Positions 403 through 21,582 of a stretch of DNA of 64,000 nucleotides are shown piece after piece. The notes under the pieces were generated by a model that ran no database searches, had not been told where the DNA came from, and worked only from the letters and a program-made list of their open reading frames with translations. The position numbers were made by a program, and so were the translations under genes. The DNA comes from an uncultured Isosphaeraceae bacterium (GTDB taxonomy: Bacteria; Planctomycetota; Planctomycetia; Isosphaerales; Isosphaeraceae): NCBI GenBank assembly GCA_945957605.1, contig CAMFLR010000009.1, forward strand, positions 1 through 64,000, given 5' to 3'. The first letter of the stretch is position 1, and every line of letters starts with the position of its first letter.

Positions 403-717
403 GTGTCGGTTGCAACGCCGGTTCAAACCGAATGGCTCAAAAGTGTCCTCTTCGACCGTGGCTTTTTGGCCCGCATTAAGGGAGAGGCGATCAAGGTCTA
501 CCTCGTCGTGATCGACGCCTGCGGCGGCATACCCGATCAGAGTGTTTCCTTGAGTCTCTCCTTCCTGCGGTCGAAGACGAGCCTTTCCACGCCAACGCTG
601 ATCGACAGCCTGGTCCAGCTCGAGGAGCTCGGACTCGTTGTCTCGACCACGCATGAGCGGGGCAAGGTAAAGACCTATTACGTGCCCGACCCGCTTCAAA
701 ACGTCGCGCATGACTGA
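403..717 (+). CDS. Small winged-helix DNA-binding protein
   Basis: A 104-residue protein that is almost entirely one winged helix-turn-helix domain. It aligns with the N-terminal domain of the next gene: GEAIKVYLVV here matches GSAIKVYLII there, and the putative recognition helix plus wing (SLSTPTLIDSLVQLEELGLV, then RGKVKTYYV) matches GLSRQTVLTAIDELVRAGLL and RGRATAYQI. The GTG start at 403 has a GGGGG ribosome site 6 bases upstream (391-397). It lies 85 bases before the longer paralogue, so co-transcription is likely. I infer a regulator of the neighbouring initiator-like gene, perhaps a DNA-binding-only version competing for the same sites. The family is not certain. Confidence 0.7.
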   Translation: MSVATPVQTEWLKSVLFDRGFLARIKGEAIKVYLVVIDACGGIPDQSVSLSLSFLRSKTSLSTPTLIDSLVQLEELGLVVSTTHERGKVKTYYVPDPLQNVAHD

Positions 718-802: not shown

Positions 803-1825
803 ATGGATTCTCTTTTCTTTCGCGTTGAACACGACCTTTTACGCTCGGAGTCGTTCAAAGTCCTCGGTGGATCAGCGATCAAGGTCTATCTCATCATTGG
901 CCTCTACTCCGATTTCGGCACCGGCTGGGCTTACCCCAGTATTCGCACGATCGCCCAGCAAGGCGGCCTGAGCCGGCAGACCGTTCTTACCGCAATCGAC
1001 GAACTCGTCCGCGCCGGCCTACTCGCGACCCACAAGTCGCGCGGCCGGGCCACTGCATACCAGATTCTTCGCGAGGCTCCCGCGCGACCGTCCTCAAAAT
1101 CTGCAAGGTCGACTCAGAAAGCCACCAAAACTGGTCCAAAATCTTTAGAGGTACCCCTTAAAACTGGTCCAAAATCTTTACACCCACCCCTCGAAGGTGG
1201 TCCAAATGTTGGGCGCGCACTGGCCCAATTCTTCGAAGAGAGCGGCCCCGCCGTTGGGCCCAAACAAGAACAAAGACCGAGAGAAGAAACCAACAGCATC
1301 CCGATTCCGGGAACACCGTTCCGTCTCTCCTCGGATGGACGGTTGCAGGTTGCTGTTGATTTACAAGAGCTTTTGACAGACCAAGGCATTCCGCGCCGCC
1401 TTGCTGAAAAGCTCGCCGCACAGAAAGATCCAGAAGCGGTCGCGAAGGTTTTGCTCAACGCTTTCTACCTTCAAAGCCAGGGCAAATTGCAAAACGGCCC
1501 CGGTTACATCCGCGCGGGTATCGAAGACGGCTACGACCTCCTGCCCCAGGTCGCCGATCGCCTCGAATCCCGCCGCCGCGAACTTGCCGCGCGGATGCAG
1601 GTGGTTGAAGCCAAAAAAGAGCGAAGCCGAGTGGAGCAAAATCAGGCATCTGAAGAGGCCGCAATCGGCCTGGTTTTGCAACAACTCGCGCCCGACGACA
1701 TTAATAAACTGATCGAACAGGCGATTGCCGAGCTACCGGCGCCCCTTGTGCGACGGAATCCCACGCTCTCGAACCCATTCATTCGCGCCAAGGTTTACGA
1801 ACTGGCTGCCGGCGAGCCCGAGTGA
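803..1825 (+). CDS. Replication-initiator-like winged-helix protein
   Basis: About 340 residues. Residues ~5-100 form a winged helix-turn-helix like that of the preceding gene. Residues ~100-165 are a proline- and lysine-rich linker with an 11-residue repeat (TGPKSL twice, then GGPNVG). Residues ~180-340 are a helical C-terminal domain with a charged helix. N-terminal wHTH, repeat-bearing linker and helical C-domain is the layout of phage and plasmid initiators such as lambda O, but no direct homologue is recognised. The ATG at 803 is chosen because AAGGTGG (788-794) lies 8 bases upstream; an in-frame TTG at 737 would add 22 residues without such a site. It converges with a ParB-methyltransferase gene, which supports a replication or partition role. 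Alternative: a transcription factor. Confidence 0.6.
   Translation: MDSLFFRVEHDLLRSESFKVLGGSAIKVYLIIGLYSDFGTGWAYPSIRTIAQQGGLSRQTVLTAIDELVRAGLLATHKSRGRATAYQILREAPARPSSKSARSTQKATKTGPKSLEVPLKTGPKSLHPPLEGGPNVGRALAQFFEESGPAVGPKQEQRPREETNSIPIPGTPFRLSSDGRLQVAVDLQELLTDQGIPRRLAEKLAAQKDPEAVAKVLLNAFYLQSQGKLQNGPGYIRAGIEDGYDLLPQVADRLESRRRELAARMQVVEAKKERSRVEQNQASEEAAIGLVLQQLAPDDINKLIEQAIAELPAPLVRRNPTLSNPFIRAKVYELAAGEPE
1127..1213 (+). repeat. Iteron-like direct repeats inside the initiator-like gene
   Basis: Two identical 21-bp units (1127-1147 and 1160-1180) and a third diverged unit (1193-1213) occur at an exact 33-bp period. All three keep the 9-bp core TGGTCCAAA (cores begin at 1132, 1165 and 1198). 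Looser GGCCCAA-type matches follow near 1222 and 1257. The period equals 11 codons and about three helical turns. The array lies in the coding linker between the two protein domains, as the origin iterons do in lambda O. Origin function is inferred. Confidence 0.55.
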
Positions 1826-1854: not shown

Positions 1855-3156
1855 CTAGGTTGGTTTACGCGCGATAAGAAGATCGCGCACCTGCCCCAGA
1901 AGCCGCCCTTCCTCGCGCGCCTTGCGCACATGCTGGGGCAAAAATGCACCCGACATCGGGCAACTGATCCGCCGTTGCGGCAAGAACCCCGCCTTCACGA
2001 TTGCCTGATATCCATAAAAAGCGTGATCGAGATACCCGAAACCTCTGGGCAAATCCTTTTCCGTTTGATTTGCGAGCAGAAGCGCGATGTGGCCGCCAGG
2101 CGCCAGCGTTTCAAAAGCGGCTGAAGCTACAGCTTCAAGAAACTCAACCCAGCCACTAAATGGCATGCCCGCAACGGTTTCGGGTCCATACGCGTCTACG
2201 AGCATCGTATGATACGGGGGATCGAGGAAGATCAGGTCGCATCCCGATGCCTCCACCGGAATTCCGCTCCGCACGTCATGCTTTTTAATGTCGCTGCGGC
2301 TGGGCTCGATATCATAAGCCAGACAGCGCCGACCCATCGAAGCGCAAACATCAATCGTCGTACCTCCGCCGGCCATCGGGTCGACGACGATCCCGCCTGG
2401 GTTGGTGTAGTAATATAGGGTATGCGCGACGATGGCTGGAGGAATCGCGCCGGGATGCGGAATACCGAACGCTCGATCGTGGCGGAATGACCAGACATCG
2501 TAGGGAGTTGGTTTGAAATTGGCCGAGAAACGATCGCGCCGCCGTAAGTCTTTGTAAGCAGCGTGAATCGTCTTCTCTTCGCGATCGAGCAAAATCAGGC
2601 TACTCTGTGCACGCGTGTCGCCAGCGAGCACTGCCTTCCAGATGGAGCGGGCTTGGCGATAAAGGTCCTTGCCGCCCAGACCAATGAGCTGCGCGATGGT
2701 CTCATCGGCGCGACCTTGTCGATTGTCGGAATTTCGACGATCGGGCCGGTTTTGATTCTGCCGCAAGTTTGCCGCACGGCGCTCGGCTGCCTTAGGTTGC
2801 TCGACTGCCTCGAGCAAATCCGCCTCACGCATCAATTGCGAGAACCGCTTGCGGCGCTGGCGGTTATAAACGAGCATCGCGCGCTGCTTTTCCGGCTCAT
2901 CGGCAAACGCTTTGATCTCACACGCCAAATTAGAGATGCCCAAACGCCGAGCGCAGGCGAGTCGCCGGTTGCCGGAAATCACCTCGGAGAGACCACGATC
3001 GTCCCTGGGTGCCACAACGAGGGGCACAAGAACACCATCAACTCTGATACTTGCTTCGAGGTCGGCTAGCTCGGACTCGGGATCCCCATATACCGCCAAA
3101 CTAAGGGCGCTTAATTCGAGTGACTCGATCGGTAAGATTTCGATGGGCGCTGCCAC
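1855..3156 (-). CDS. ParB-domain DNA methyltransferase fusion
   Basis: 433 residues. Residues ~1-95 are a ParB/sulfiredoxin-like N-terminal domain, with VISGNRRLACARRLGI matching the ParB nucleotide-binding box. Residues ~95-215 are a basic helical region that may hold the ParB HTH (RQNQNRPDRRNS and following). Residues ~215-433 are a Rossmann-type DNA methyltransferase: VVDPMAGGGTT is the AdoMet-binding motif and FLDPPYHTM the catalytic D-P-P-Y motif of N4-cytosine/N6-adenine enzymes. The start is GTG at 3156. The fusion type is known on phages and mobile elements, where it modifies DNA without an obvious restriction partner; none is seen here. It converges with the initiator-like gene. Target sequence unknown. 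Confidence 0.8.
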   Translation of the reverse strand: MAAPIEILPIESLELSALSLAVYGDPESELADLEASIRVDGVLVPLVVAPRDDRGLSEVISGNRRLACARRLGISNLACEIKAFADEPEKQRAMLVYNRQRRKRFSQLMREADLLEAVEQPKAAERRAANLRQNQNRPDRRNSDNRQGRADETIAQLIGLGGKDLYRQARSIWKAVLAGDTRAQSSLILLDREEKTIHAAYKDLRRRDRFSANFKPTPYDVWSFRHDRAFGIPHPGAIPPAIVAHTLYYYTNPGGIVVDPMAGGGTTIDVCASMGRRCLAYDIEPSRSDIKKHDVRSGIPVEASGCDLIFLDPPYHTMLVDAYGPETVAGMPFSGWVEFLEAVASAAFETLAPGGHIALLLANQTEKDLPRGFGYLDHAFYGYQAIVKAGFLPQRRISCPMSGAFLPQHVRKAREEGRLLGQVRDLLIARKPT

Positions 3157-20640: not shown

Positions 20641-21582
20641 ATGCGTGGCACCCTCGTCCGACTTGCACTCGGGTTCATGATGTCGACCGCCCTTGTGGCA
20701 ACCGCCAGCGCCCAGGCGACAAAATCGACGGCCGAAACAGCCAAACCCGCCGCCAAAAAGGCCGTGGGCAAGATCGACCTGAACAAGGCAACCGCCGAAC
20801 AGCTTCAAGAACTCCCCGGCGTCGGACCAGTTCACGCAGCCGATATCATCAAGGCCCGGCCGTTCAAAACGGTGTCCGACCTGAAGTCGGTGAAGGGGAT
20901 CCACGAATCGCTCTACACCAGCCTCCTGCCGCACGTGAAGGTGACGGAAGAGCCTGAAAAGAAGGCGATGACCAAGAAGGTCGACCTCAACACCGCCACG
21001 GCCGATCAGCTTCAGGAACTGCCCGGTATCGGCCCCGTTCGCGCGGCCGAAATCATCAAGGCCCGGCCGTTCAAATCAGTCGAGGCGCTCAAAGACGTCA
21101 AGGGGATGACCGAAAGCGCCTACACCGAGCTGGTCCCGCACGTCATCGTCCACACAGCCGCCACGCCAAAGCCGACGATGACCAAGGAAAAGATGACCAG
21201 GACAGAAGCCACCCCCACCCCCAAGAAAGCTGCAACACCTACCCCTGCTCCGACGACGACGGCTACGACCAAGGAAGAGATGCCCAAGACAGCGGCGAAG
21301 ACCACTCCCAAGAAGGCCGTAACCAAGGCAGCCGCGAAGGAAGCAGAGGAAGACGATCCGAAGCGCGTTTCGCGCAAGAAAGCGGCACTCGCGGCTGGCC
21401 GGCTGATCAACATCAACACCGCCGATGAGAAAGAACTTCAGGAACTTCCCGGCATCGGTCCCGTTCGTGCGGCGGCAATCGTCGAAAAGCGCCCGTTCGC
21501 CAAGGTCGAAGACATCATGGGCGTGACCGGCATCAAGGAAGGCATCTTCGGTCAGATCAAAGACCACATCAGCGTCAAGTGA
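20641..21582 (+). CDS. Secreted protein with three ComEA-type helix-hairpin-helix domains
   Basis: 313 residues. A signal peptide (residues 1-24, ending ATASAQA) is followed by three near-identical ComEA-like HhH domains at ~44-100, ~114-168 and ~257-313. Each begins D/I-N-x-A-T/A-x-x-x-L-Q-E-L-P-G-[IV]-G-P-V and continues with A-A-x-I-[IV]-x-x-R-P-F. Domains 2 and 3 are split by a ~90-residue Lys/Thr/Pro/Ala linker. ComEA binds incoming DNA at the cell surface during transformation with one such domain; three in tandem on an exported protein suggest DNA binding in the periplasm. ATG at 20641, with GGGAG 8 bases upstream. The kinase gene follows after 24 bases. No comEC or comF is in the window, so uptake is conjecture. 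Confidence 0.85.
   Translation: MRGTLVRLALGFMMSTALVATASAQATKSTAETAKPAAKKAVGKIDLNKATAEQLQELPGVGPVHAADIIKARPFKTVSDLKSVKGIHESLYTSLLPHVKVTEEPEKKAMTKKVDLNTATADQLQELPGIGPVRAAEIIKARPFKSVEALKDVKGMTESAYTELVPHVIVHTAATPKPTMTKEKMTRTEATPTPKKAATPTPAPTTTATTKEEMPKTAAKTTPKKAVTKAAAKEAEEDDPKRVSRKKAALAAGRLININTADEKELQELPGIGPVRAAAIVEKRPFAKVEDIMGVTGIKEGIFGQIKDHISVK

Follow-up and report, generated by a model that had tools for sequence, protein, structure and literature searches.

Within the window, by which we mean the whole 64,000-nucleotide stretch of DNA analysed here, a gene for a putative replication initiator holds three direct repeats, a cluster of GGCC positions and a purine-rich tract inside its own coding sequence, and it stands between a small winged-helix gene and a gene for a DNA methyltransferase. 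The features are listed here in order of position.

403..717, + strand: small winged-helix gene, 104 aa, candidate iteron regulator (PHROG 18020).
803..1825, + strand: initiator gene, 340 aa, with winged helix, disordered linker and helical C-terminal domain (HTH_36, PHROG, AlphaFold2).
1130..1149, + strand: iteron 1, ACTGGTCCAAAATCTTTAGA, conserved in the codon alignment of 36 genomes.
1163..1182, + strand: iteron 2, ACTGGTCCAAAATCTTTACA, conserved in the codon alignment.
1196..1215, + strand: iteron 3, GGTGGTCCAAATGTTGGGCG, degenerate in the window genome and canonical in many relatives (codon alignment).
1222..1261, + strand: GGCC cluster, four conserved positions (nucleotide conservation).
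1262..1290, + strand: purine/A-rich strand-asymmetric tract, AAACAAGAACAAAGACCGAGAGAAGAAAC, candidate unwinding region (composition, rare codons).
1298..1825, + strand: C-terminal helical domain, family-specific (predicted model, pLDDT 78).
1855..3156, − strand: ParB_N plus N6/N4 DNA methyltransferase gene, convergent downstream neighbour (Pfam; the window and 10 of 10 near-complete genomes).

The initiator gene begins at ATG 803 and not at TTG 737, as the homologue alignment indicates. Its product carries an HTH_36 winged helix (Pfam, E 3.7e-12), and AlphaFold2 predicts disorder for the linker that follows (pLDDT < 50, residues about 114–184 when numbered from 737). The initial annotation had called the gene initiator-like and had placed the repeats in a linker between a winged helix and a C-terminal domain; the predicted models, with their disordered linker, agree with the second statement, and the first is borne out by matches to replication-initiation and O-like PHROG families, made through the winged-helix part only (O-like, E 6e-10), and by fold matches to RepA_N initiators. 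The latter rank first among structural matches to the winged helix (4pql, 4pt7 and 5kbj, with Z of 9.9, 9.7 and 8.7; Foldseek against 4pql, E 9e-4), and since unrelated winged helices score nearly as high, they speak for the fold and not for membership. Additionally, the RepA_N Pfam model matched none of 27 homologues at E 0.1, and we therefore class the initiator as working like RepA_N-type systems, not as a member of them. The lambda O Pfam model is not among the listed matches of the initiator, and RP-C is matched weakly (E 0.05). For the C-terminal domain, Pfam returned no match and a structural search of the PDB none below E 1.7; the domain is strongly conserved, with a mean column identity of 79%.

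What, then, are the repeats within the linker-coding DNA? A 21-mer, AAAACTGGTCCAAAATCTTTA, is present twice without a mismatch, beginning at 1127 and at 1160, and a core, TGGTCCAAA, occurs at 1132, 1165 and 1198, a spacing of exactly 33 bp. These are the two identical units, the third sharing their core and the exact spacing that had been described at the outset, and Tandem Repeats Finder concurs, reporting an array at 1126–1206 (period 33, 2.5 copies, score 106) that is one of two in the 64 kb. The three-copy periodicity score at 33 bp is 0.77, whereas shuffles reach at most 0.60 when all periods from 15 to 60 are considered. A codon alignment of 36 homologues, which leaves out Isosphaera pallida, gives the family unit as ACYGKYCCAnnnTCTTTAGA, three times at 33 bp; taken singly, 33 of 37 genomes have 33 bp as their best period, mostly above codon-order shuffles. 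The exceptions are three genomes with weak scores (L011, L031 and G006) and Isosphaera pallida (G020), in which the gene and the purine tract are kept and neither iterons nor 33-bp repeats are recognisable. The unit contains no evident palindrome; dimers of the RepA_N type bind semi-palindromes. Across 14 whole genomes, the motif is essentially confined to the initiator gene, with other matches at about the level of a reversed-pattern control, and a genome-wide motif regulon was rejected on that account.

The iteron repeats are under strong DNA-level selection. The codon TTA, for example, encodes 74 of the 177 leucines in the linker (42%) and 29 of the 1289 elsewhere (2%), and CCA, TCT, TTA and AGA, each expected at 2–6%, are fixed at 86–100% in the columns of the repeats and the purine tract. 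In 15 columns, over 70% of genomes share a codon whose expected frequency is below 15%, and 13 of these columns fall in residues 134–182; kinship inflates such counts of codon fixation, and the control is the remainder of the same genes. The encoded peptide changes (TGP, TVP, SVL or TDL) while the DNA motif stays constant, and the conserved bases include first and second codon positions. The suggestion in the initial annotation that the DNA identity exceeds what the peptide TGPKSL requires thus stands, with the fixation of rare codons confined to the linker. Nor did the observations that were to count against it materialise: homologues have kept the repeats, 33 bp being the best period in the 33 of 37 genomes mentioned above, and third codon positions within the repeats show almost no variation and no free drift.

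Beyond the third iteron, the first bases of the GGCC positions fall at 1222, 1235, 1244 and 1257, i.e. at intervals of 13, 9 and 13 bp, the second reading GAAG in the window genome. Lying between the iterons and the purine tract, these positions might be methyltransferase targets or form a hairpin. The tract is 76% purine and 56% A+T, compared with 51% and 38% for gene windows of the same length in 37 genomes, values that are enriched and not extreme, and the rare codons AGA, CCA, AAA and CAA are fixed in it. The lambda origin has a comparable purine asymmetry in the A+T-rich region adjoining its iterons (PMC5043065).

When viral contigs were scanned with the alignment, proteins with a winged helix 35–43% identical emerged on four IMG/VR contigs (L202–L205), and a further relative was found on the Polaromonas plasmid pA29BJ2. 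Their repeats lie directly behind the rep gene and have motifs unrelated to the iterons of the Isosphaeraceae, with successive spacings in bp of 33/32/33 (L202), 33/32/16 (L203), 16/32/33 (L204) and 32/33 (L205); in pA29BJ2, the repeats are 33/32 bp apart with TTATCCACA adjoining. A period of 32–33 bp is the best of all periods from 15 to 60, and above every shuffle, in five of six relatives; in the scanned stretch of an Acinetobacter plasmid relative (L208), no repeats of 32–33 bp were found. DnaA-box-like sequences stand by the repeats in at least three relatives. The 33-bp period noted in the window is therefore found in phages and plasmids with a related winged helix as well, and this sharing of a period by different motifs is, from the sequences compared, the strongest sign that the repeats may be binding sites of the winged-helix group. 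As a separate observation, HTH_36 Rep proteins of PHROG 28562, a family of unnamed function (L202–L205 and L207), have iterons of 32–33 bp right behind their gene, and we suggest that these iterons are a usable signature for the origins of unannotated phage-plasmids.

Of 45 Isosphaeraceae genomes, 39 have the initiator gene, each as a single copy, and all 10 near-complete ones (assemblies of at most nine contigs, n = 10) are among them; carriers known by name include Singulisphaera acidiphila DSM 18658, Tautonia sociabilis, Aquisphaera insulae and Paludisphaera soli. It is absent from 54 genomes of other families in the class, and a profile search of 294 genomes of the phylum returned only the window's own gene and one match to the winged helix alone, with no full-length relative outside the family. 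Upstream of the initiator gene, each of the 10 near-complete genomes has an rRNA operon pointing away from the gene (four loci were also examined with Rfam), and it is because of this operon that draft contigs, the window's among them, often break just upstream. The small winged-helix gene precedes the initiator in nine of the 10 near-complete genomes and in the window; it matches PHROG 18020 (replication initiation, O-like) at E 7e-11, and its product is 22% identical to the N-terminal domain of the initiator. At 104 aa, this protein amounts to hardly more than a second winged helix, and it may be a competitor of the initiator for the iterons. The ParB_N-methyltransferase gene downstream, in turn, may have a part in marking or segregating the site. 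Beyond these two genes and the rRNA operon, the neighbours vary. Presence as a single copy throughout the family, together with synteny, shows that the gene has long resided in the chromosome and was not recently inserted. The genome is one of the Isosphaeraceae, so that of the two settings initially proposed, a planctomycete chromosome and an integrated plasmid, the former holds; the latter does not agree with a single-copy, family-wide gene kept in synteny beside the rRNA operon and the ParB_N-methyltransferase gene. Family-wide synteny likewise rules out a recently integrated plasmid or prophage. We found no report of this locus in the literature.

Where does the locus lie on the chromosome? 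By coordinates, the initiator gene is 0.38–0.47 of a chromosome away from the S10 operon in each of the eight genomes in which this could be measured. In Singulisphaera acidiphila DSM 18658 (NC_019892), it is located near 4.64 Mb. In the usual bacterial layout, a locus antipodal to the S10 operon is on the terminus side, and so a terminus-side position is suggested; the fixed antipodal position itself fits either end of the origin–terminus axis. DnaA is present in every Isosphaeraceae genome examined, and dnaA and the chromosomal parB are mostly far from the locus, except that dnaA of Isosphaera pallida is only 1.7% away. Local GC skew changes from negative upstream to positive downstream of the gene in most genomes. 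Across 100 kb on each side, the change is seen in G027 and G029, is less clear in G021 and is hardly seen in G024, and the local skew is opposite to expectation in the window genome (on the downstream side) and in G013; the conserved neighbours and the rRNA operon contribute to this local signal. Whole-genome GC skew, for which three genomes were sampled at 20 points, runs irregularly and points to no origin, and the directions of rRNA operons, considered genome by genome, favour neither dnaA nor the initiator locus as origin. In G013 (Isosphaeraceae bacterium KatS3mg108), the skews of 20-kb blocks range from −0.41 to +0.23 with no simple two-arm pattern.

DnaA boxes were absent from the 20 kb regions at nine of the 10 near-complete loci, and the tenth has an isolated one 6.7 kb away. 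Tandem pairs of TTATCCACA, the DnaA box, are absent from 11 genomes, and single consensus boxes occur at or below the level of a reversed control, figures to be read with the proviso that the planctomycete box may differ from the consensus. The parS consensus TGTTTCACGTGAAACA, with at most one mismatch allowed, is absent from 13 of 14 genomes despite their chromosomal ParB, being found solely in G020 at about 0.46 Mb from the initiator gene; the Isosphaeraceae probably use a different parS.

We read the repeats as iterons that the initiator would bind, belonging to an embedded origin that is either still active or ancestral, and put the probability of this sequence-based reading at about 0.78. 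The gene would encode a replication initiator of the phage or plasmid winged-helix kind, with its own linker-coding DNA as the origin. The three iterons, set 33 bp or about three helical turns apart, would bind the winged helix, the purine/A-rich tract beyond the GGCC cluster would be the likely unwinding region, and the C-terminal domain may recruit the host helicase or primase. Such a module would have been captured by an ancestor of the Isosphaeraceae and kept at one place, between the rRNA operon and the ParB_N-methyltransferase gene. Counting against an embedded origin are the modest A+T content of the tract, the lack of DnaA boxes at nine of the 10 loci, the absence of recognisable iterons in Isosphaera pallida and the weak scores of three other genomes, the non-palindromic unit, the irregular whole-genome skew, the contrary local skew in the window genome and G013, the distance from S10, dnaA and parB, and the presence of DnaA throughout.

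The principal rival is a domesticated site that no longer serves replication, at which a former initiator binds the iterons in its own gene as a regulator, or which acts as a centromere-like segregation site or a site for copy-number titration. Vertical inheritance on the chromosome and a DnaA in every genome of the family speak for such a site, as do its position antipodal to the S10 operon and its conserved ParB_N-methyltransferase and small winged-helix neighbours, and DnaA boxes are missing at the locus, whereas the phage and plasmid relatives have them. However, a mere operator has no need of the purine tract, which is under equally strong DNA-level selection, nor does this account sit well with the strong conservation (79%) of the family-specific C-terminal domain, and it would be uncommon for an operator to sit 330 bp into its own gene. 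We consider a domesticated site improbable on balance.

Could the conserved codons instead act in the mRNA, through pausing at the rare TTA codons or as a folded regulatory RNA, or could the repeats be a matter of protein sequence only? That the rare conserved codons sit in a coding region is compatible with an RNA-level element, but no consensus RNA structure was found over the iterons (seven weak pairs lie outside them, one with two-sided change), first and second codon positions are conserved despite amino-acid change, and the relatives have the same spacing outside any gene, all of which makes an element of this kind very unlikely. The identity of units 1 and 2 over 21 bp in the window genome could in principle reflect selection for the TGPKSL peptide and a recent duplication of its DNA; yet members of the family differ in the peptide and agree in the fixed rare codons, the linker is predicted to be disordered, and a recent duplication does not account for repeats shared by 33 of 37 divergent genomes, so that we give this explanation hardly any credence.

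Returning to the embedded origin, does it fire in present-day cells? On the evidence at hand, we would rate this at slightly below even odds. Unlikely, in our estimation, is the further proposal that a captured in-gene origin starts the main chromosome, either replacing DnaA-oriC or acting as an additional origin roughly half a chromosome away from S10/dnaA; compatible with it are the presence of the gene in all 10 near-complete genomes, its fixed distance from S10, the outward rRNA operon, the skew change in most genomes and the absence of tandem DnaA-box pairs. To our knowledge, iteron origins inside genes have been described in phages and plasmids, but not as a fixed, family-wide part of a bacterial main chromosome. 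If active, the site would be a DnaA-independent or second chromosomal origin for the Isosphaeraceae, and the question of how replication proceeds in chromosomes whose GC skew is irregular would gain a named initiator; the family may, in other words, copy its chromosome, or part of it, by a mode of initiation undescribed for bacterial main chromosomes. If inactive, it would still show clearly how selection can maintain the DNA sites inside a gene of a captured replicon.

Several known systems resemble this arrangement in part. Plasmids of the pSK41 family of RepA_N replicons have their origin inside rep, and in pSK41 the protein sequence of the linker is dispensable (PMC5703833); the Isosphaeraceae gene shares with the pSK41 and pTZ2162 type the winged-helix fold and the iterons within the part of the coding sequence that joins the N- and C-terminal domains, but it lacks a RepA_N Pfam match, its C-terminal domain is without a structural relative, and it is chromosomal and family-wide, not plasmid-borne. 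The initial comparison with lambda O stands for the architecture, that is, a candidate origin inside the initiator gene with iterons followed by a purine-asymmetric A+T-rich region, and for the O-like PHROG matches. It fails for the iterons themselves, which are direct repeats at 33 bp whereas those of lambda are closely set and inverted, as well as for the Pfam match to lambda O, which is wanting; moreover, the locus is not in a prophage context and has no P-type loader gene next door, its neighbours being the small winged-helix gene and the ParB_N-methyltransferase gene. The HTH_36 Reps of phage-plasmids (the PHROG 28562 group) have a homologous winged helix, at 30–39% identity, and the 32–33 bp iteron period, but their iterons lie behind the gene and are accompanied by DnaA-box-like sequences, some have ParA upstream, and their C-terminal part is another one.

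In repABC replicons, which are also used by secondary chromosomes, oriV lies inside repC (PMC3155836). Here too the candidate origin is within an initiator gene, and there is the weak RP-C match, but repC origins have an A+T-rich region and no iterons, and the repABC gene order is absent at the Isosphaeraceae locus. Finally, cyanobacteria whose chromosome replicates independently of DnaA have an irregular GC skew and a dnaA gene without an evident origin nearby (PMC7198777). The Isosphaeraceae are alike in their irregular skew and in having dnaA away from any evident origin; whereas the alternative initiator of cyanobacteria is unknown, the Isosphaeraceae offer a concrete candidate for initiator and origin. 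Elsewhere in the window, positions 20770–21143 hold a tandem array (period 207), each unit of which, read as protein, is a helix-hairpin-helix repeat of ComEA-like type.
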